A stretch of DNA of 64,000 nt, from NCBI GenBank assembly GCA_963575645.1, contig OY754466.1, positions 33,078,001 to 33,142,000 of the forward strand, read 5' to 3'. Origin of the DNA: Xanthostigma xanthostigma (Eukaryota > Arthropoda > Insecta > Raphidioptera > Raphidiidae). The notes beneath the pieces were generated by a model that saw only the letters and a program-made list of their open reading frames with translations, was not told the DNA's origin and ran no database searches. The position numbers were made by a program, and so were the translations under genes. This document shows, in pieces, positions 44,731-59,400 of this stretch. How positions within the stretch are numbered: position 1 is the first letter of the stretch; each line of letters opens with the position of its first letter.

Positions 44731-47700
44731 CATGAGGGTTAGTCTATTTACACTATAACATTCAGGTTTGGATCATTCTCTCATAAGAAAATGCAAACTG
44801 CATATTAACCATTATTTTAACGCAGACAAGCAGTTTTTACATGCTTCACGACAATTGCGTGCAAATGAGTCCTTATAGGCAAAATTGCTTTATTTTACAA
44901 AGGTAAGTCTATTTTCACTATAACATTCAGGTTTGGATCATTCTTTCATAAGAAAATGCAAACTGCATATTAACCATTATTTTAACGCATACAAGCAGTT
45001 TTTACATGCTTTATGACAATTAGGGGCAAATAAGTCCTTATAGGCAAAATTGCTTTATTTCATGAAGGTAAGTCTATTTACACTATAACATTCAGGTTTG
45101 GATCATTCTCTCATAAGAAAATGCAAACTGCATATTAACCATTATTTTAACGCCGACAAGCAGTTTTTACATGCTTTACGACAATTAGGTGCAAATGAGT
45201 CCTTATAGGCAAAATTGCTTTATTTCATGAGGGTTAGTCTATTTACACTATAACATTTAGGTTTGGATCATTCCCTCATAAGAAAATGCAAACTGCATAT
45301 TAACCATTATTTTAACGCATACAAGCAGTTTTTACATGCTTTATGACAATTAGGGGCAAATAAGTCCTTATAGGCAAAAGTGCTTTATTTCATGAAGGTA
45401 AGTCTATTTACACTATAACATTCAGGTTTGGATCATTCTCACATAAGAAAATGCAAACTGCATATTAACCATTATTTTAACGCAGACAAGCAGTTTTTAC
45501 ATGCTTTACGACAATTAGGTGCAAATGAGTCCTTATAGGCAAAATTGCTTTATTTCATGAGGGTTAGTCTATTTACACTATAACATTTAGGTTTGGATCA
45601 TTCTCTCATAAGAAAATGCAAACTGCATATTTACTATCATTTTAACGCTTACAAGCAGTTTTTAAATGCTTTATGACAATTAGGTGCAAATAAGTCCTTA
45701 TAGGCAAAATTGCTTTATTTCATGAGGGTAAGTCTATTTACACTATAACATTCAGGTTTGGATCATTCTCTCATAAGAAAATACAAACTGCATATTAACC
45801 ATTATTTTAACGCATACAAGCAGTTTTTACATGCTTTATGACAATTAGGGGCAAATGGGTCCTTATAGGCAAAATTGATTTATTTCATGAAGGTTAGTCT
45901 ATTTACACTATAACATTTAGGTTTGGATCATTCTCTCATAAGAAAATGCAAACTGCATATTTACTATCATTTTAACGCTTACAAGCAGTTTTTACATGCT
46001 TTATGACAATTAGGGGCAAATAAGTCCTTATAGGCAAAATTGCTTTATTTTCTGAGGGTAAGTCTGTTTACACTATAACATTTAGGTTTGGATCATTTTC
46101 TCATAAGAAAATGCAAACTGCATATTAACCATTATTTTAACGCATACAAGCAGTTTTTACATGCTTTATGACAATTAGGGGCAAATGGGTCCTTATAGGC
46201 AAAATTGATTTATTTCATGAAGGTTAGTCTATTTACACTATAACATTTAGGTTTGGATCATTCTCTCATAAGAAAATGCAAACTGCATATTAACCATTAT
46301 TTTAACGCATACAAGCAGTTTTTACATGCTTTATGACAATTAGGGGCAAATGGGTCCTTATAGGCAAAATTGCTTTATTTCATGAAGGTTAGTCTATTTA
46401 CACTATAACATTCAGGTTTGGATCATTTTTGATAAGAAAATGCAAACTGCATATTAACCATTATTTTAACGCAGACAAGCAGTTTTTACATGCTTCACGA
46501 CAATTGCGTGCAAATGAGTCCTTATAAGCAAAATTGCTTTATTTTACAAAGGTAAGTCTATTTTCACTATAACATTCGGGTTTGGATCATTCTCTCATAA
46601 GAAAATGCAAACTGCATATTAACCATTATTTTAACGCATACAAGCAGGTTTTACATGCTTTATGACAATTAGGGGCAAATGAGTCCTTATAGGCAAAATT
46701 GCTTTATTTCATGAAGGGTAAGTCTATTTACACTATAACATTCAGGTTTGGATCTTTCTCTCATAAGAAAATGCAAACTGCATATTAACCATTATTTAAA
46801 CGCAGACAAGCAGTTTTTACATGCTTTACGACAATTAGGTGCAAATAAGTCTTTATAGGCAAAATTGCTTTATATCATGAGGGTAAGTCTATTTACACTA
46901 TAACATTCAGGTTTGTTTCATTCTCTCATAAGAAAATGCAATCTGCATATTAACCATTATTTTAACGCATACAAGCAGTTTTTACATGCTTTATGACAAT
47001 TAGGGGATAATGAGTCCTTATAGGCAAAATTGCTTTATTTCATGAGGTTAAGTCTATTTACACTATAACATTCAGGTTTGGATCATTCTCTCATAAGAAA
47101 ATGCAAACTGCATATTAACCATTATTTTAACGCATACAAGCAGTTTTTACATGCTTTATGACAATTAGGGGCAAATAAGTCCTTATAGGCTAAATTGCTT
47201 TATTTCATGAAGGTTAGTCTATTTACACTATAACATTCAGGTTTGGATCATTCTCTCATAAGAAAATGCAAACTGCATATTAACCATTATTTTAACGCAG
47301 ACAAGCAGTTTTTACATGCTTTACGACAATTAGGTGCAAATGAGTCCTTATAGGCAAAATTGCTTTATTTCATAAGGGTTAGTCTATTTACACTATAACA
47401 TTTAGGTTTGGATCATTCTCTCATAAGAAAATGCAAACTGCATATTTACTATCATTTTAACGCTTACAAGCAGTTTTTACATGCTTTATGACAATGAGGT
47501 GCAAATAAGTCCTTATAGGCAAAATTGCTTTATTTCATGAGGGTAAGTCTATTTACACTATAACATTCAGGTTTGGATCATTCTCTCATAAGAAAATGCA
47601 AACTGCATATTAACCATTATTTTAACGCATACAAGCAGTTTTTACTTGCTTATGACAATTAGGGGCAAATGGGTCCTTATAGGCAAAATTGCTTTATTTC

Positions 47701-47827
47701 ATGAGGGTTAGTCTATTTACACTATAACATTTAGGTTTGGATCATTCTCTCATAAGAAAATGCAAACTGCATATTAACCATTATTCAAACGCAGACAAGC
47801 AGTTTTTACATGCATTACGACAATTAG

Positions 47828-47831
47828 GTGC
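47828..47831. repeat. Target-site duplication, left copy (GTGC)
   Basis: The four satellite bases GTGC lie immediately before the TG of the left LTR and are repeated at 56423-56426 immediately after the CA of the right LTR. Removing the element and one GTGC restores an ordinary monomer (...ACAATTAGGTGCAAATGAG...). Confidence 0.92.
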
Positions 47832-48982
47832 TGCCACGCCGTCACACTGACAGCGCGTGACAAAAGGGATGCTTCGGCCTTCAGTCGGTAGTTAGGGGTG
47901 GGGCGTTAAATGACCACGCAATAATATACCAAAAAAAAACTAGAAGGGAAGAACTTACCGGAATTCCTTTGGTGGCCCACAATACCTCCAGCTGTACGCA
48001 GGTATACGAGAGGTGGGAGAGTCCCACAAAATAGTGATAAATATTTTAGTTAGGCGCCAAAGTCAGATATTGGTACTGCCGGAAAGGGTCGCTGACTTTC
48101 GACTCAGGCAATGAGGGGATGGACCAAAGAAAAGCAATTATAACCACAATTCATCAAACATATACATATATATTCAAAATCAAGAGAAAACAGATACACG
48201 ACCTAGTCGTTACAGTCGGCGCACGGCGCCTTCACAATTATTCGTATAATAAAATCTTTTAAATCCTGAATACAAAAATAAGTCACAAGTCTGTCTAACA
48301 GACAAAATGCAAGAAAATCTGTATAAAAAAAAATATTCGCAGATCGGTAGTTGTTTAGTTAAATTAAAAAAAAAAAAAAATATACCGCGAAAGAATTTGT
48401 ACTGAATTGAATAATATCAATTCGCGACAGGTAATGGCATTATCGGTAAATTTAAACTCAAATGAGAAACCGGCACTTGAATTAAACAGTAAGCTAAAAT
48501 GACCGAAAGAGTCGTAAGACGATTTCGAACGAAATGCACTAAATGAATCAGAGACGCGAAGAATCTAAAATACCATAATTAAGTCAAACGAACAAAGCGT
48601 TACTCCAAAATATAGGATCAACAATAACAAAATTTTATAACCGTATTGCCATCACTTGTACGGATAAATCAAAATATAAACAAAATTAAGTTGCAACGAA
48701 ATTTGTGGCCAATTACCTCAATGAATTGCCATACACAAAATATATACAATCATACATTATATGTGTCTGAAGGACACCCGCAAGAAAAATACCATAAATT
48801 ATTTACATACATAATACAGGACACGTTGGTAGAAGGTAGTGTTGTAACAGTAACCCCAAAAATTTTCTGTCGTCCGTACACGACCAAAGCACAAAGAAAT
48901 CTGAATCGTAAACTTAAAACTTCAGAAATACGCAATAATTTCAATATCACAAAATCATACAACAAAACGCGAGACGATATCT

Positions 48983-49140
48983 GAGGCTATTTAAATCCGT
49001 CTAAGACGTTCCCCAACGTATCGCTCAAAGCAAGTACCCAAAATTGCAAAACACTGCGAGGTTATTTAAATCCGTACTACGACGTTTTTCCCCCAGCGTA
49101 CCGCACAAAACCAAGAAGGTACCAAAATACAAAATACCGT
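48983..49140. repeat. Imperfect ~76-bp tandem repeat in the 3' LTR
   Basis: Two units start GAGGCTATTTAAATCCGT (48983) and GAGGTTATTTAAATCCGT (49058). Each is followed by an ACGTT block and an ACGTA/GCGTACCGC block. A weaker echo (TTCTTCCAGCGTACC) lies near 49235. On the element strand each unit contains ATTTAAATA-like AT-rich DNA that could be promoter sequence, but nothing here proves it. The same pair lies at about 54254-54411 in the other LTR. Confidence 0.65.
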
Positions 49141-49583
49141 ACTCAAAAGATCCGCAATTACATTGACCGAATCATAACGTCAGAATAATTTACATAATAA
49201 TTCAACAAAAGACTTGGTTACTGTAACAAACCTTCTTCCAGCGTACCTAAATCAGTTACATGAAAAATTGGTCATATCTGAACACTTCAAAAAAAAAATT
49301 ACATACTTAAATAGAAAGAAATTAACGTGTATAGTTCATAATTAACTAGACAACAAAATAGCGTGGTACCAGGCTATGTACAACATTTCTTAATACTTGA
49401 ACCAGAGGTTCCAAAACATTATATACATACATACGTCAATGGCAGGCGTAACGATGCCGAGCAACATAATAAATTTAAAGTTGGGTTCAAGCAGACAACA
49501 GCTTGACTAGCAAATTACAGGCTGTTCAAAAAAAAGATTAATAGTAAAAAAAAAAATTAATATTCATAACTAAATGAACTTTC

Positions 49584-49631
49584 TACACTTCGTTTGGCAA
49601 ACAAAATAAAGAACTTCAAACACGAAGTGTA
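49584..49631. repeat. 10-bp inverted repeat in the 3' LTR
   Basis: TACACTTCGT (49584-49593) and its exact reverse complement ACGAAGTGTA (49622-49631) are separated by 28 bp and lie just before the double-hairpin motif at 49645. The counterpart in the 5' LTR is at 54855-54902. The RNA could form a stem; no function is assigned. Confidence 0.6.
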
Positions 49632-49644
49632 ATGCTATTTGGCA

Positions 49645-49726
49645 ACCGCCTTTTACGGTCCGTCAAGAGCAACGGTGGGGGTATTCTCTAAGGTAAATGG
49701 TTGTAGCCCCAACCCCACAGGGCGAC
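49645..49726 (-). other. Double-hairpin motif, LTR copy (3' LTR)
   Basis: First stem ACCG/CGGT around the loop CCTTTTA (49645-49659). After it come a CGGTGGGGGTATTCT block and CCCCAACCCCACAGGGC, in which GTGGGG can pair with CCCCAC as a second stem. The same plan recurs at 52269 and 52497 with different stem bases. I infer a conserved RNA or DNA structure of the element; its role is unknown. Confidence 0.6.
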
Positions 49727-49860
49727 AGTGAAGTGAAGTTACAAAGTTTGTAGCATAACAAAAGAACTAAATTTCAAAACGACTCTAATGAAATGTTGCT
49801 CAGTCAAATATAAATCACACCGGCCATCGGCATTCAGTTTTCTAAGCACAAACGGAGCAT

Positions 49861-49920
49861 CGGAGGTACAAATACTTAATCGGAGGTACAATACTTAATC
49901 GGAGGCATAAATAACTTAAT
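49861..49920. repeat. Three ~20-bp tandem units in the 3' LTR
   Basis: Units of 20, 19 and 21 bp: CGGAGGTACAAATACTTAAT, CGGAGGTACAATACTTAAT and CGGAGGCATAAATAACTTAAT-like (first 20 bases CGGAGGCATAAATAACTTAA). The 5' LTR carries the same triplet at 55132-55191. Confidence 0.8.
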
Positions 49921-51151
49921 TAATCTTATCGTCGACCATTCAGGCAATTGGGCAACGTACCCTATGAATTTTTATTGAGAAAAAAAAATTATTGTGGGAA
50001 GCACAAATCTAACATTTTTTTTTTTATGAATATAATTTAGCACAGATAACTCAAATTCTTACTCGATAGGTCGTCAATACATGAAACGGTGAAGCCAAAA
50101 TTTACATCTACTTAATACAGTCCTGTACAAATTCTACGTATGACTTATTTTTTTTTGTTGCAAAAATTCATGAATAAGCTATTCAATTAAGTAACAGTGG
50201 CATCGTTTTTTACTATATTGAGCTAATATTTAATTAATGATACTCATCGATGCGTTCAAAGAAACATTACGTCTGTCGGATGGACTATCGGAACACAAAC
50301 AAGGCTCCGATGAACGAAGATCTATTCGACAATGAATTAGGGCTTCGATTGATACCCGTAGGAAAGTCAAACGCACGAGAACGAAATTTCAATATGTAGT
50401 CTTCAGTGACAATGAAACTTGCACACACACAAAAGCAAAAATGGAACAACTCACTACTTGTTGATTTCTACTACTTTTACCAAGCTGAGTCGATCTTTCA
50501 GATGAACGTCAGACTGGAAATTCAGTTGATGTGATGAACCCCAGAGCCGGTAGATCCATAAGACAGCAAATAAGAACCAGGTCCTATTTCGTCACCATAC
50601 AGGTTACATTTCCAAATGATTTTCATTCGACAAACTACATCATCGCTATTTCATACCATAATGCGTGGTGTTCCTTCGACTAGGAACCTACAATATTTCC
50701 GTATAATCATCAGAAAAAAACAGATTGACAAAAGTCACACGTGGTCAGAAAATTTTTATGCAAGGCAAAAGATCTTACCAGTAGGAAAATCGAAAAATCC
50801 AGTCGGAAAAACATTCATTATCTTGCAGACAATAATAAACAATCACTTCAGGCTATAAAATTCAAATTTTCGGGCAGATGTTCCAGGATGTACTTTCAGT
50901 CATGTATCATCACCGAAAGCCATTTTAGAAATCCGACGCAATAAGATCCAAGTCGAACAGAACATTGACAGCGTCATTCTATAGCGGAATACCTTACTGG
51001 TAACCTCATCTATTGGCAAAATATCCAACCTACTTCCCAAAAGAAGAGTATCTACACGAATGCAGCGAAATTACTATACTGAATGATAGGTTGCCTACCC
51101 TCAAGGAAACAATGTTACAATACGACAAAATTTCAAAATTTAACCGTAACA

Positions 51152-51167
51152 ACTCCCCCCTTACCCC
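51152..51167 (-). promoter_or_regulatory. Polypurine tract next to the 3' LTR
   Basis: Plus-strand ACTCCCCCCTTACCCC; on the element strand GGGGTAAGGGGGGAGT, directly before the TG of the 3' LTR. In LTR elements the RNase-resistant purine tract primes plus-strand DNA synthesis. There is one T within an otherwise purine run. Position and composition together make this a confident call. Confidence 0.85.
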
Positions 51168-51340
51168 GTCAGGCAGAAAACTCCCTGAGTTTTCTGACGA
51201 CTGATGCCGTCTGAAACCAATCTAACTAAACAGAACTCACATTCCAGAATTCTCGCAAAATCAAAATATCTGCTCCAACAGAGCTCATAAACACAACGAA
51301 TAACGTTAGAGGGAATCATCACCCCTAATCAAACAACACT

Positions 51341-51600
51341 CAAGAAAGGAAAAATTCTTCAAAAGAAAAGAGAAAGTTCGACTATCTCCATTACAATAAC
51401 CAGGAGTTCGTGACATACAAAAGTTGCCAGTCTCCAGGATTATGGTTCTGGGTTCAGAACAAGAAACAACACACAAAAGAAAATTTCTTCAAGGAAAAGA
51501 GAAAGTTCGACTATCTCCATCACAATAACCAGGAGTTCGTGACATACAAAAGTTGCCAATCTCCATGTTCATGGTTATGGGTTCAGAACAAGACTCAAGA
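51341..51600. repeat. 129-bp tandem repeat, about two units, in the internal region
   Basis: AGAAAGTTCGACTATCTCCA occurs at 51371 and 51500, a spacing of 129 bp, followed in both by ACAATAACCAGGAGTTCGTG and ACATACAAAAGTTGCCA. The start of a third unit (ACTCAAGAAA) follows. The period is a multiple of three, so a plus-strand frame (51410-51724) repeats TYKSCQSP and WVQNK. This frame lies antisense to the element and I do not call it a gene. Confidence 0.85.
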
Positions 51601-52268
51601 AAAAAAGAGAAAAAAAAAATACAATAGTATGCTTAACGGTCTCCAGGATATAGAGACGGGTTTGGATATCAAAGATTGTAAGCACACTCGTTTCAAACAC
51701 AACATAAGACATACGACACTATAAATAAGTGGTCAAGGAAAGAAAACATAATTAAATACAAGAACATTCAGCTCCTAAAATCAAGAGCATACGAACGCTC
51801 AAAAAAAAAAAAATAATCTCTAAGCCGGGTATTTGTCAAAATCGGGAAATTCTGTAGATTACCAAGAACAATTTCACTGGATCTAACGCTGATATAGCAC
51901 ACTACTCAGACTCGAGTAAAGCCAAATCCTGAATAATCAGAGTGGAGGTGCCAATAAACTTCAAAGACACTATAGGTACTTCGATCACTTTATTACAACA
52001 CAAACAGATGGGTGAGTTGGAAGAAAGCTTCAAATCCAATATTATATTGTGTTTCTCCAATCACGTCCACCAAACAAAACAAAACACAAAAAGTTGACAT
52101 CTCCTAACGCCACACTAGAGCTTAGGCAAATCCTGCAAAGCAGTAACGGAATTCATCCAAATCCATAAGCAACAAGCGCTCAAATTCAGAGCAATGATTA
52201 CTACGCAACGTCGATCGACAGAGAAAAGAACGGTAACTATCAGGATAATTGTCAACGATCTACGCAAT

Positions 52269-52336
52269 GGCCGCCTCTTACGGCCGGTAAGATCAAACCG
52301 CGGAAGAATTCTTGTACACCCCTTTACCGCAGGGCA
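52269..52336 (-). other. Double-hairpin motif, internal copy 1
   Basis: Stem GGCCG/CGGCC around the loop CCTCTTA (52269-52285). Downstream are ACCGCGGAAGAATTCT and CCCCTTTACCGCAGGGC, where GCGG can pair with CCGC. It aligns with the LTR copy at 49645 and the copy at 52497. Confidence 0.6.
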
Positions 52337-52496
52337 TTTAAAGAAATTATAGAAAAGTCTAAGTCACTTTCGGGAGAGAGAAAAAAAAATTGTCGAAATC
52401 GGGTTAGTCACAATCGAATCTTTAAATCCAACTGAAGTGTATATAGTGGTGTTGTGTAAGTGCAGAAAATGTACTGTGGTGTGTGTGGGTTCACTT

Positions 52497-52560
52497 GATC
52501 GCCTTTTACGATCGGCGGAACGTACCGCGGGACTATTCTTCGCCGGCCCCCGCACGGCTT
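52497..52560 (-). other. Double-hairpin motif, internal copy 2
   Basis: Stem GATCG/CGATC around the loop CCTTTTA (52497-52513). It is followed by ACCGCGGGACTATTCT and CCCCCGCACGGC, where GCGGG can pair with CCCGC. All five stem pairs are intact although two of the pairs differ from those of the copy at 52269. Confidence 0.6.
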
Positions 52561-53077
52561 CTTTTAATAAGTGGGGCCGTAAACGAAACGCAATAACACA
52601 CAACAACGAAGAGATAATTATTCGGCATAATTCTTCATTTCAAAAGTACTACATACAGCGAGACAAAACAACACACAAAAAAAAAGATTACTCAGTATCG
52701 GCAAAATGTCCACTCCGGAATATGCCATAGTGACTATTATTAAATGCCGCAAACAAGTAGTTGAAGTAAGTCTCAATACAGTAACGGCCACACAAAAAAA
52801 ACAACAACAACAAAGAAAAAAAAATACTCGACCAAAATCAATTACACAAGAGAAAGGTCAAGGTCAATCAAGGATAATTCTAGATCGTCCGTTATACTTG
52901 ACACAAAAGGGGTGGTTGGTTCATCAACGAAACCACTAAACAAAACAAAAGGTCGCACAACAAAATATCCGAGCTCGAAGCTCATACGTCACAATATGTA
53001 TATATATATGTATATTTGGGTCACAAAAATCTCATCTAAACAACATCTATCAATACGGAAGGTTTTAATGCAAAGAG

Positions 53078-53095
53078 GCCCCACGTTGGGCGCCA
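53078..53095 (-). promoter_or_regulatory. Primer-binding site, tRNA-Lys(CUU)
   Basis: Plus-strand GCCCCACGTTGGGCGCCA equals the last 18 nt of animal tRNA-Lys(CUU) including the added CCA, as I know that tRNA. The element strand therefore carries its complement, TGGCGCCCAACGTGGGGC, six bases downstream of the 5' LTR. It primes minus-strand DNA synthesis. It fixes the element's orientation and shows that the internal region begins here. Confidence 0.92.
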
Positions 53096-54253
53096 AAATT
53101 TTGCCACGCCGTCACACTGACAGCGCGTGACAAAAGGGATGCTTCGGCCTTCAGTCGGTAGTTAGGGGTGGGGCGTTAAATGACCACGCAATAATATACC
53201 AAAAAAAAACTAGAAGGGAAGAACTTACCGGAATTCCTTTGGTGGCCCACAATACCTCCAGCTGTACGCAGGTATACGAGAGGTGGGAGAGTCCCACAAA
53301 ATAGTGATAAATATTTTAGTTAGGCGCCAAAGTCAGATATTGGTACTGCCGGAAAGGGTCGCTGACTTTCGACTCAGGCAATGAGGGGATGGACCAAAGA
53401 AAAGCAATTATAACCACAATTCATCAAACATATACATATATATTCAAAATCAAGAGAAAACAGATACACGACCTAGTCGTTACAGTCGGCGCACGGCGCC
53501 TTCACAATTATTCGTATAATAAAATCTTTTAAATCCTGAATACAAAAATAAGTCACAAGTCTGTCTAACAGACAAAATGCAAGAAAATCTGTATAAAAAA
53601 AAATATTCGCAGATCGGTAGTTGTTTAGTTAAATTAAAAAAAAAAAAAAAATATACCGCGAAAGAATTTGTACTGAATTGAATAATATCAATTCGCGACA
53701 GGTAATGGCATTATCGGTAAATTTAAACTCAAATGAGAAACCGGCACTTGAATTAAACAGTAAGCTAAAATGACCGAAAGAGTCGTAAGACGATTTCGAA
53801 CGAAATGCACTAAATGAATCAGAGACGCGAAGAATCTAAAATACCATAATTAAGTCAAACGAACAAAGCGTTACTCCAAAATATAGGATCAACAATAACA
53901 AAATTTTATAACCGTATTGCCATCACTTGTACGGATAAATCAAAATATAAACAAAATTAAGTTGCAACGAAATTTGTGGCCAATTACCTCAATGAATTGC
54001 CATACACAAAATATATACAATCATACATTATATGTGTCTGAAGGACACCCGCAAGAAAAATACCATAAATTATTTACATACATAATACAGGACACGTTGG
54101 TAGAAGGTAGTGTTGTAACAGTAACCCCAAAAATTTTCTGTCGTCCGTACACGACCAAAGCACAAAGAAATCTGAATCGTAAACTTAAAACTTCAGAAAT
54201 ACGCAATAATTTCAATATCACAAAATCATACAACAAAACGCGAGACGATATCT

Positions 54254-54411
54254 GAGGCTATTTAAATCCGTCTAAGACGTTCCCCAACGTATCGCTCAAA
54301 GCAAGTACCCAAAATTGCAAAACACTGCGAGGTTATTTAAATCCGTACTACGACGTTTTTCCCCCAGCGTACCGCACAAAACCAAGAAGGTACCAAAATA
54401 CAAAATACCGT
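54254..54411. repeat. Imperfect ~76-bp tandem repeat in the 5' LTR
   Basis: Counterpart of 48983-49140. GAGGCTATTTAAATCCGT and GAGGTTATTTAAATCCGT begin the two units. If the AT-rich part is a promoter element, this is the copy that would act in transcription of the element. Confidence 0.65.
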
Positions 54412-54854
54412 ACTCAAAAGATCCGCAATTACATTGACCGAATCATAACGTCAGAATAATTTACATAATAATTCAACAAAAGACTTGGTTACTGTAACAA
54501 ACCTTCTTCCAGCGTACCTAAATCAGTTACATGAAAAATTGGTCATATCTGAACACTTCAAAAAAAAAATTACATACTTAAATAGAAAGAAATTAACGTG
54601 TATAGTTCATAATTAACTAGACAACAAAATAGCGTGGTACCAGGCTATGTACAACATTTCTTAATACTTGAACCAGAGGTTCCAAAACATTATATACATA
54701 CATACGTCAATGGCAGGCGTAACGATGCCGAGCAACATAATAAATTTAAAGTTGGGTTCAAGCAGACAACAGCTTGACTAGCAAATTACAGGCTGTTCAA
54801 AAAAAAGATTAATAGTAAAAAAAAAAATTAATATTCATAACTAAATGAACTTTC

Positions 54855-54902
54855 TACACTTCGTTTGGCAAACAAAATAAAGAACTTCAAACACGAAGTG
54901 TA
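54855..54902. repeat. 10-bp inverted repeat in the 5' LTR
   Basis: Counterpart of 49584-49631, with the same exact arms TACACTTCGT and ACGAAGTGTA. Confidence 0.6.
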
Positions 54903-54915
54903 ATGCTATTTGGCA

Positions 54916-54997
54916 ACCGCCTTTTACGGTCCGTCAAGAGCAACGGTGGGGGTATTCTCTAAGGTAAATGGTTGTAGCCCCAACCCCACAGGGCGAC
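54916..54997 (-). other. Double-hairpin motif, LTR copy (5' LTR)
   Basis: Identical to the motif at 49645-49726, since the LTRs are copies. It lies in the LTR, so it may sit in the transcribed part of both ends, depending on where the R region lies. Confidence 0.6.
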
Positions 54998-55131
54998 AGT
55001 GAAGTGAAGTTACAAAGTTTGTAGCATAACAAAAGAACTAAATTTCAAAACGACTCTAATGAAATGTTGCTCAGTCAAATATAAATCACACCGGCCATCG
55101 GCATTCAGTTTTCTAAGCACAAACGGAGCAT

Positions 55132-55191
55132 CGGAGGTACAAATACTTAATCGGAGGTACAATACTTAATCGGAGGCATAAATAACTTAAT
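55132..55191. repeat. Three ~20-bp tandem units in the 5' LTR
   Basis: Counterpart of 49861-49920, with no difference between the two LTRs in this stretch. Confidence 0.8.
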
Positions 55192-56422
55192 TAATCTTAT
55201 CGTCGACCATTCAGGCAATTGGGCAACGTACCCTATGAATTTTTATTGAGAAAAAAAAATTATTGTGGGAAGCACAAATCTAACATTTTTTTTTTTATGA
55301 ATATAATTTAGCACAGATAACTCAAATTCTTACTCGATAGGTCGTCAATACATGAAACGGTGAAGCCAAAATTTACATCTACTTAATACAGTCCTGTACA
55401 AATTCTACGTATGACTTATTTTTTTTTGTTGCAAAAATTCATGAATAAGCTATTCAATTAAGTAACAGTGGCATCGTTTTTTACTATATTGAGCTAATAT
55501 TTAATTAATGATACTCATCGATGCGTTCAAAGAAACATTACGTCTGTCGGATGGACTATCGGAACACAAACAAGGCTCCGATGAACGAAGATCTATTCGA
55601 CAATGAATTAGGGCTTCGATTGATACCCGTAGGAAAGTCAAACGCACGAGAACGAAATTTCAATATGTAGTCTTCAGTGACAATGAAACTTGCACACACA
55701 CAAAAGCAAAAATGGAACAACTCACTACTTGTTGATTTCTACTACTTTTACCAAGCTGAGTAGATCTTTCAGATGAACGTCAGACTGGAAATTCAGTTGA
55801 TGTGATGAACCCCAGAGCCGGTAGATCCATAAGACAGCAAATAAGAACCAGGTCCTATTTCGTCACCATACAGGTTACATTTCCAAATGATTTTCATTCG
55901 ACAAACTACATCATCGCTATTTCATACCATAATGCGTGGTGTTCCTTCGACTAGGAACCTACAATATTTCCGTATAATCATCAGAAAAAAACAGATTGAC
56001 AAAAGTCACACGTGGTCAGAAAATTTTTATGCAAGGCAAAAGATCTTACCAGTAGGAAAATCGAAAAATCCAGTCGGAAAAACATTCATTATCTTGCAGA
56101 CAATAATAAACAATCACTTCAGGCTATAAAATTCAAATTTTCGGGCAGATGTTCCAGGATGTACTTTCAGTCATGTATCATCACCGAAAGCCATTTTAGA
56201 AATCCGACGCAATAAGATCCAAGTCGAACAGAACATTGACAGCGTCATTCTATAGCGGAATACCTTACTGGTAACCTCATCTATTGGCAAAATATCCAAC
56301 CTACTTCCCAAAAGAAGAGTATCTACACGAATGCAGCGAAATTACTATACTGAATGATAGGTTGCCTACCCTCAAGGAAACAATGTTACAATACGACAAA
56401 ATTTCAAAATTTAACCGTAACA

Positions 56423-56426
56423 GTGC
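56423..56426. repeat. Target-site duplication, right copy (GTGC)
   Basis: Pairs with 47828-47831. The satellite continues directly as GTGCAAATGAGTCTTTATAG, in phase with the monomer cut at the left side. Confidence 0.92.
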
Positions 56427-59400
56427 AAATGAGTCTTTATAGGCAAAATTGCTTTATTTCATGAGGGTAAGTCTATTTACACTATAACATTCAGGCTTGG
56501 ATCATTCTCTCATAAGAAAATGCAAACTGCATATTAACCATTATTTTAACTCATACAAGCAGTTTTTACAAGCTTTATGACAATTAGGTGCAAATGAGTC
56601 CTTATAGGCAAAATTGCTTTTTTTATGAGGGTTAGTCTATTTACACTATAACATTTAGGTTTGGATCATTCTTTCATAAGAAAATGCAAACTGCATATTT
56701 ACTATCATTTTAACGCATACAAGCAGTTTTTACATGCTTTATGACAATTAGGTGCAAATGAGTCCTTATAGGCAAAATTGCTTTATTTAATGAAGGTTAG
56801 TCTATTTACACTATAACATTCAGGCTTGGATCATTCTCTCATAAGAAAATGCAAACTGCATATTAACCATTATTTTAACTCATACAAGCAGTTTTTACAA
56901 GCTTTATGACAATTAGGTGCAAATGAGTCCTTATAGGCGAAATTGCTTTATTTCACAAAGGTAAGTTTACTTACACTATAACATTCAGGTTTGGATCATT
57001 CTCTCACAAGAAAATGCAAACTGCATATTAACTATTATTTTAACGCATACAAGCAGTTTTTACATGCTTTATGACAATTAGGAGCAAATGGGTCCTTATA
57101 GGCAAAATTGCTTTATTTCATGAAGGTTAGTCTATTTACACTATAACATTCAGGTTTGGATCATTCTCTCATAAGAAAATGCAAACTGCATATTAACCAT
57201 TATTTTAACGCATACAAGCAGTTTTTACATGCTTTATGACAATTAGGGGCAAATGGGTCCTTATAGGCAAAATTGCTTTATTTCATGAAGGTTAGTCTAT
57301 TTACACTATAACATTCAGGTTTGGATCATTCTCTCATAAGAAAATGCAAACTGCATATTAACCAATATTTTAACGCAGACAAGCAGTTTTTACATGCTTC
57401 ACGAAAATTGCGTGCAAATGAGTCTTTATAGGCAAAATTGCTTTATTTTACAAAGGTATGTCTATTTACACTATAACATTTAGGTTTGGATCTGTCTCTC
57501 ATAAGAAAATGCAAACTGCATATTAACCATTATTTTACCGCAGACAAGCAGTTTTTACATGCTTTACGACAATTAGGTGCAAATGAGTCCTTATAGGCGA
57601 AATTGCTTTATTTCACAAAGGTAAGTTTACTTACACTATAACATTCAGGTTTGGATCATTCTCTCACAAGAAAATGCAAACTGCATATTAACTATTATTT
57701 TAACGCATACAAGCAGTTTTTACATGCTTTATGACAATTAGGAGCAAATGGGTCCTTATAGGCAAAATTGCTTTATTTCATGAAGGTTAGTCTATTTACA
57801 TTATAACATTCAGGTTTGGATCATTCTCTCATAAGAAAATGCAAACTGCATATTAACCATCATTTTAACCCTTACAAGCAGTTTTTACATGCTTTATGAC
57901 AATTAGGTGCAAATAAGTCCTTATAGGCAAGATTGCTTTATTTCATGAGGGTAAGTCTATTTACACTATAACATTCAGGTTTGGATCATTCTCTCATAAG
58001 AAAATGCAGTCTGCATATTAACCATTATTTTAACGCATACAAGCAGTTTTTACATGCTTTATGACAATTAGGGGATAATGAGTAATTATAGGCAAAATTG
58101 CTTTATTTCATGAGGGTAAGTCTATTTACACTATAACATTCAGGTTTGGATCATTCTCTCATAAGAAAATGCAAACTGCATATTAACCATTATTTTAACG
58201 CATACAAGCAGTTTTTACATGCTTTATGACAATTAGTGGCAAATAAGTCCTTATAGGCAAAATTGCTTTATTTCATGAAGGTAAGTCTATTTACACTATA
58301 ACATTCAGGTTTGGATCATTCTCTCATAAGAAATTGCAAACTGCATATTAACCATTATTTTAACGCAGACAAGCAGTTTTTACATGCTTTACGACAATTA
58401 GGTGCAAATGAGTCCTTATAGGCAAAATTGCTTTATTTCATGAGGGTTAGTTTATTTACACTATAACATTTAGGTTTGGATCATTCTCTCATAAAAAAAT
58501 GCAAACTGCATATTTGCTATCATTTTAACGCTTACAAGCAGTTTTTACATGCTTTATGACAATTAGGTGCAAATAAGTCCTTATAGGCAAAATTGCTTTA
58601 TTTCATGAGGGTAAGTCTATTTACACTATAACATTCAGGTTTGGATCATTCTCTCATAAGAAAATGCAAACTGCATATTAACCATTATTTTAACGCAGAC
58701 AAGCAGTTTTTACATGCTTCTAGACAATTGCGTGCAAATGAGTCCTTATAGGCAAAATTGCGTTATTTTACAAAGGTAAGTCTATTTACACTATAACATT
58801 CAGGTTTGGATCGTTCTCTCATAAGAAAATGCAAACTGCATATTAACTATTATTTTAACGCATAAAAGCAGTTTTTACATGCTTTATGACAATTAGGGGC
58901 AAATGAGTCCTTATAGGCAAAATTGCTTTATTTCATGAAGGTTAGTCTATTTACACTATAACATTCAGGTTTGGATCTTATTCTCATAAGAAAATGCAAA
59001 CTGCATATTAACCATTATTTTAACGCAGACAAGCAGTTTTTACATGCTTCACGACAATTGCGTGCAAATGAGTCTTTATAGGCAAAATTGCTTTATTTTA
59101 CAAAGGTATGTCTATTTACACTATAACATTTAGGTTTGGATCTGTCTCTCATAAGAAAATGCAAACTGCATATTAACCATTATTTTACCGCAGACAAGCA
59201 GTTTTTACATGCTTTACGACAATTAGGTGCAAATGAGTCCTTATAGACAAAATTGCTTTATTTCATGAGGGTAAGTCTATTTACACTATAACATTCAGAG
59301 TTGGATCTTTCTCTAATAAGAAAATGCAAACTGCATATTAACCATTATTTAAACGCAGACAAGCAGTTTTTACATGCTTTACGACAATTAGGTGCAAATG

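Follow-up and report, generated by a model that had tools for sequence, protein, structure and literature searches.

Long terminal repeat (LTR) retrotransposons without gag and pol include the large retrotransposon derivatives (LARDs), typically with LTRs of about 4.4 kb and a 3.5-kb centre, and the terminal-repeat retrotransposons in miniature (TRIMs), which measure under about 1 kb in total and have LTRs of about 100–350 bp (passage of PMC3532108). Pairs of a LARD and an autonomous element are described from plants, among them Dasheng and RIRE2 (passage of PMC1940013), and in 2012 LARDs were reported from plants only (PMC3532108, same passage). In insects, LARDs are listed for the honey bee, where 301 entries cover 3.10% of the genome (PMC4028053), and for the whitefly, with 859 copies in six lineages (PMC9143410); the cited passages name no autonomous partner. 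For Culex quinquefasciatus, 38 gag-pol-less LTR families were tabulated in 2012, none of them relatable to an autonomous element according to the cited part of PMC3286476, an example of animal elements of this kind that are catalogued with no source assigned. The cited part also describes the Osvaldo lineage in Culex, in which the primer is always tRNA-Lys, LTRs are long (the text gives 997–2055 bp, the table as much as 2137), elements reach 12.5 kb and most table rows show 4-bp target duplications; Woot of Tribolium is a close relative of some. Here we compare with these systems an element at positions 47832–56422 (8591 bp, read on the minus strand) of a 64-kb window, by which we mean the whole stretch of DNA analysed (contig C3:33078001–33142000 of a 623-Mb, 28-contig genome). 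The element is very probably a non-autonomous LARD of the Ty3/gypsy type that lost gag-pol by deletion, was mobilised in trans and exchanged LTR sequence with its partner.

On its own strand the element starts with TGTTACGG and ends with GGCGTGGCA, and its long LTRs have TG/CA ends (Table 1). The LTR pair differs by one substitution (50491 C, 55762 A) and one homopolymer A indel (48365/53636). Together the LTRs make up 77% of the element, and the interior (51152–53101) measures 1950 bp. The primer site TGGCGCCCAACGTGGGGC, 6 nt inside from the LTR, is complementary to the 3' end of a tRNA-Lys(CTT) gene found in this genome, except for the terminal CCA, which tRNAs receive later. A purine tract (GGGGTAAGGGGGGAG) abuts the LTR opposite the primer site. 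The element is flanked on both sides by a 165-bp satellite and by copies of a GTGC target duplication. When the 400-bp flanks were joined with one GTGC, the satellite motif recurred at spacings of 164, 165 (spanning the insertion site) and 164, so the register was kept. An earlier sequence-only reading had described a complete element with TG/CA edges and the GTGC duplication, a primer site for tRNA-Lys and a polypurine tract, and we found these almost to the base. The minus-strand orientation and the piecewise alignment of the interior to gag-pol relatives (below) go beyond that reading. Its two LTR differences in 3.3 kb, LTR share of 77%, 1.95-kb interior and satellite surroundings also held, and the arthropod host that it proposed is supported by 111 matches to PF00379 (cuticle domain) in the genome, compared to zero in 14 control genomes.

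Table 1. Coordinates of the element's features within the 64-kb window
Feature	Position	Strand	Basis or remark
Target-site duplication GTGC, left copy	47828..47831	none	sequence; satellite register restored across site
LTR, 3' in element orientation	47832..51151	minus	3320 bp; LTR pair alignment and relatives in the same genome with equal ends
Polypurine tract region	51152..51175	minus	GGGGTAAGGGGGGAGT adjoining 3' LTR; sequence
3' non-coding region of autonomous element, pol end at its 52.7-kb side	51152..52707	minus	alignment to gag-pol copies
Deletion junction, gag codon 8 to pol end	52687..52711	minus	GGACATTTTGCCGATACTGAGTAAT; 25-mer search and alignment
5' leader and gag codons 1-8	52705..53101	minus	alignment to gag-pol copies
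Primer binding site, tRNA-Lys(CTT)	53078..53095	minus	6 nt from LTR; same-genome tRNA gene match
LTR, 5' in element orientation	53102..56422	minus	3321 bp; LTR pair alignment
Target-site duplication GTGC, right copy	56423..56426	none	sequence

We searched the genome with the first 1001 bp of the LTR (53 matches; 40 of 42 candidates scored) and with the interior (42 matches; 20 of 20 scored), and 20 stretches with relatives were retrieved and mapped. Four full-length copies with the same LTR ends carry gag-pol (C8:24.47 Mb, 12,907 bp; C12:13.49 Mb, 13,083 bp; C8:30.9 Mb, 13,362 bp; C5:31.65 Mb, 14,578 bp). Three copies lack gag-pol and have a common deletion junction (the window copy, 8,591 bp; C10:14.49 Mb, 10,151 bp; C2:13.17 Mb, 8,581 bp). 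Perfect 4-bp duplications were present at 11 of the 11 insertion events with both edges read (GTGC, CAAT, ACTT, AAGA, AATT, AACT, AAAT, GGCT, GTGT, GAGT and ATGC). The ATGC duplication of three C7 copies was counted once, and a C4 LTR with a gap near its start (L055), an LTR cut by the edge of its stretch (L058) and C5:14.78 Mb lay outside the count. The sequence-only reading was right about the 3.3-kb length of the LTRs, but this is not special to the window copy; the gag-pol copies have LTRs of 3.3–4.0 kb, and long LTRs are therefore a property of the family. Given its position within a 165-bp satellite array, the repeated unit might be a long tandem repeat or a higher-order satellite unit that merely resembles LTRs. 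We consider this extremely improbable, since outside the satellite the 3.3-kb unit either pairs around gag-pol or stands single, and the single units carry LTR ends and 4-bp duplications. An ordinary tandem repeat of the unit, lacking element ends, was one case that the sequence-only reading had set against itself, and these single units speak otherwise.

Over its whole length, the interior aligns in pieces to the gag-pol relatives, as the leader, the ends of the coding region and the 3' non-coding region, the last with a 129-bp tandem repeat present twice (51331–51593). Compared to the C8:24.47-Mb copy, 4494 bp of gag-pol are absent, with a 3-nt overlap (ATT) at the junction. Across the junction, the element strand reads ATGGCATATTCCGGAGTGGACATT (gag codons 1–8) and then TTGCCGATACTGAGTAAT (the pol end, with three substitutions). 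The gag-start ATG at 52728 opens a 36-codon mini open reading frame, out of frame with pol. The earlier statement that the interior codes for nothing recognisable stood insofar as gag-pol coding capacity is lacking; its sequence is recognisable, as parts of gag-pol copies from which the coding region was deleted. A Pfam scan of six of the 14 minus-strand frames of at least 45 aa gave nothing over the curated cut-offs (best E 0.0067), and a remnant env or other gene was rejected for these frames. Rfam at the gathering threshold gave zero matches in 47600–56600, and ARAGORN gave zero tRNAs in the window.

The junction 25-mer was found at exactly three places (C2, C3 and C10; 0 mismatches), with no others at 1–2 mismatches and 0 for the control. 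The undeleted gag start was found at eight places at up to 3 mismatches, including three C7 copies. The three dispersed junction copies have different target duplications (GTGC, CAAT and AAAT) and LTR–LTR Kimura two-parameter (K2P) distances of 0.0003, 0.0003 and 0.0005. Private alleles, like the recombination statistics below, were counted on gap-free columns with one C7 copy standing for three. The junction trio has six private alleles in the 3' part, three of them beside the junction (any other trio, at most two). In their junction and 3' part, the three copies are one clonal line. One deletion was thus propagated, for all three loci have the junction, and every one of them shows near-identical LTRs and a 4-bp duplication different from the others. 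A one-off dead product that arose in, or at the birth of, the window copy and never spread would equally have an interior plainly derived by deletion from a gag-pol element, and internal deletions do recur in the family. We judge it very unlikely, as the junction and the 3' private alleles are present at two more loci with other flanks, other target duplications and near-identical LTR pairs. The sequence-only reading had named a single deleted copy with no other gag-pol-less copies as the case that would speak against it; we found two more copies with the same junction.

The deletion in the C7 copies, which retain roughly the first 47 gag codons and the last 142 pol codons, differs from the junction deletion, so internal deletions arose at least twice. 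These copies (L046–L049; C7:31.92, 32.95 and 33.02 Mb) were rejected as separate insertions on the basis of their common ATGC duplication, deletion, defective second LTR and satellite flanks. They represent one internally deleted element in three copies, with a shortened second LTR, and were apparently multiplied via duplication of the satellite array and not by transposition. Spliced genomic RNA was rejected as the source of the junction deletion, since the missing segment never begins with GT, whatever its placement in the ATT overlap. At its gag start, the C2 junction copy has an extra 113 bp of LTR end plus primer site, a pattern that an erroneous strand jump would produce.

The sequence-only reading had also predicted that the genome would hold an autonomous partner, and the gag-pol copies provide candidates. 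We performed the Pfam domain scan on one of them, C8:24.47 Mb, in pieces. Its gag spans 495 codons stop to stop and matched Retrotrans_gag (E 2.3e-10), with the zinc knuckle below the cut-off. Its pol, scanned in two pieces, matched RVT_1 (5.7e-40), RNase H (8.8e-40), Integrase_H2C2 (3.3e-19) and rve (8.6e-14); protease matches were weak and below cut-offs. Gag, reverse transcriptase, RNase H and integrase are thus over cut-off and in the Ty3/gypsy order, and among solved structures, 4ol8 and 7q5b (Ty3) come closest to the first pol piece. Both gag and pol are open in three of the four full-length copies; in the C12 copy pol is open and gag is interrupted. The ratio of non-synonymous to synonymous substitution rates (dN/dS) was 0.03–0.22 in 15 of 15 piecewise comparisons (interrupted C12 gag left out), each value based on 1–5 non-synonymous changes. 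All four copies have LTR–LTR K2P distances of 0–0.0003, tRNA-Lys primer sites and 4-bp duplications; the C8:24.47-Mb pair is 58 bp unequal in length, and the C5 pair has four gap events. Between pol and the 3' LTR, the C8:24.47-Mb copy has zero element-strand frames of at least 100 aa. Frames at or after the pol end of the other copies (169 aa, C8:30.9 Mb; 112 aa, C5; 106 aa, C12, overlapping the pol end) had sub-cut-off Pfam matches or none, and no env was recognised in them. The gag-pol copies of the same genome are likely the partners of the gag-pol-less lineage.

The near-identical LTRs agree with the earlier view of a young element that moved recently. If insects mutate at 2.9e-9 per site in each generation, a single substitution within 3320 bp dates the insertion to about 52,000 generations ago, with a Poisson range of roughly 1,300 to 289,000.

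We observed that the window LTR is a mosaic. Overall it is nearest to the C5 gag-pol copy (94 differences in 3312 positions), and along 1,030 bp up to about position 50203 the two show zero differences (gaps ignored). At 48632–48931, it differs from C2 at 0 of 300 positions and from C5 at 29 of 297, and at about 50132–50631 no compared copy is closer than a single LTR on C6. For adjacent informative sites of the LTR, incompatibility was 0.289 compared to 0.480 after shuffling (243 sites, 10 rows) and, with 8 rows, 0.256 compared to 0.491 (0 of 1000 shuffles at or below the observed value in each). Because the window LTR pair is nearly identical, the mosaic is older than the last jump, unless conversion came later. 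The LTRs of the C5:31.65-Mb gag-pol copy and the gag-pol-less C10:14.49-Mb copy (L050–L053) have a common insert of ~630–640 bp that is absent from the window LTR, a further sign of LTR exchange between both kinds of copy.

These data suggest the following course. Through one internal deletion at the 3-nt overlap, a 12.9–14.6-kb gag-pol element lost its coding region from gag start to pol end; its two LTRs remained, as did the leader (including the primer site and the first gag codons), the long 3' non-coding region and the purine tract. Proteins of the gag-pol copies probably packaged RNA of the deleted element, presumably via its leader, and reverse-transcribed it, and such mobilisation in trans would have placed it at three or more loci. 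Template switching between co-packaged RNAs would then have brought in LTR blocks from other family lineages; judging from the sequences, switching in mixed particles fits best as the source of the mosaic. The same course could hold with the mosaic made by gene conversion between genomic copies. Conversion among repeats is a known process in general, and blocks exchanged before the last jump do not separate the two processes. The blocks are identical in both window LTRs, hence older than the last jump, and the LTR end and primer site at the C2 gag start fit strand jumping by reverse transcriptase, yet both observations are compatible with conversion all the same. We infer that template switching is the preferable explanation and regard conversion as unlikely. 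We tentatively propose, as a real possibility, that the gag-pol-less lineage may persist as a parasite by switching templates in mixed particles and so repeatedly adopting its partner's current LTRs, with promoter ends that recombine freely and a deleted interior that remains clonal. If so, the parasite's LTRs would keep up with those of the partner, and with host silencing of older LTRs.

Several points weigh against trans-mobilisation with LTR exchange. The junction is present in three copies only, a modest success. In the leader, two alleles are private to the junction trio and two other trios likewise have two, which makes the leader neutral on the grouping of the junction copies; its recombination test had 13 informative sites only. 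The 3' non-coding part showed no clustering of incompatibility (shuffles at or below the observed value, 963 of 1000 with 8 rows and 801 of 1000 with 7 rows). Few changes underlie each dN/dS value, as noted above. Gene conversion before the last jump could have made the mosaic, and conversion after insertion would make the age estimate and the LTR pairs too young.

We also made observations on the surroundings and on tRNA-Lys sequences. The 165-bp satellite accounts for about 4.0% of all sequence in the genome (scaled 20-mer count). Three of 11 family insertion events lie in it (L044/L045, L046–L049 and the window element; binomial P = 0.008, ascertainment uncontrolled), and the insertion points of the window and C8:30.9-Mb copies are 6 bp apart within the satellite monomer. 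At 551–2138 of the window, the satellite holds a 1.6-kb minus-strand insert, by eye a predicted fragment of a non-LTR retrotransposon, with a 99% identical full-length match at C1:12391506–12393093 and partial matches elsewhere. A 42-base segment of the tRNA-Lys gene has eight exact matches in the genome, and 38 of its 51 one-mismatch matches have the same change just after the anticodon; these perhaps represent an amplified tRNA-derived repeat. The 15-base tRNA-Lys 3' end (the complement of the primer site) occurs 2,225 times in the genome (reversed control, 0), which hints at numerous elements primed by tRNA-Lys or at repeats derived from tRNAs.

Judged on its mechanism and on the criteria that can be tested, the element is classed as a Ty3/gypsy LARD. 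TRIM identity was rejected on size (8591 bp, 3.3-kb LTRs). The 3.3–4.0-kb LTRs of the family are close to the about 4.4 kb given for a typical LARD (passage of PMC3532108). The tRNA-Lys primer site and 4-bp duplications are those described for the Osvaldo lineage, whereas LTRs of 3.3–4.0 kb and elements of 12.9–14.6 kb exceed the 997–2055 bp and 12.5 kb given for Culex in the cited part of PMC3286476. Primer and duplications would agree with Osvaldo membership and LTR length exceeds the range, a judgement by description and not by tree. The LTRs of Woot of Tribolium measure several kilobases. The sequence-only reading considered LARDs to be mainly plant elements and unusual in an arthropod. 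This matches the state of print in 2012 (PMC3532108) but is overstated, given the bee and whitefly LARDs and the Culex gag-pol-less elements in the passages cited above. In the literature searched, outside which most subscription papers lie, we did not find an arthropod LARD for which a partner was demonstrated and mosaic LTRs were described, and we make no claim of its absence from print. As in plant pairs of the Dasheng/RIRE2 type, a gag-pol-less element has LTRs in common with an autonomous partner in one genome (passage of PMC1940013). The present case differs in its arthropod-like genome, its three junction copies and an interior that is the remnant of the partner after simple deletion of gag-pol, the Dasheng interior standing outside this comparison. 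The Culex non-autonomous families are similar in their LTRs, primer site, purine tract, target duplication, non-coding sequence and internal tandem repeats; unlike these families, which the cited part of PMC3286476 could not relate to an autonomous element, the element described here is linked to its source. One genome holds the parasite lineage at three loci together with the copies that likely help it, another deletion of independent origin, and LTRs both single and mosaic, so that deletion origin, spread in trans and LTR exchange become testable in one species.

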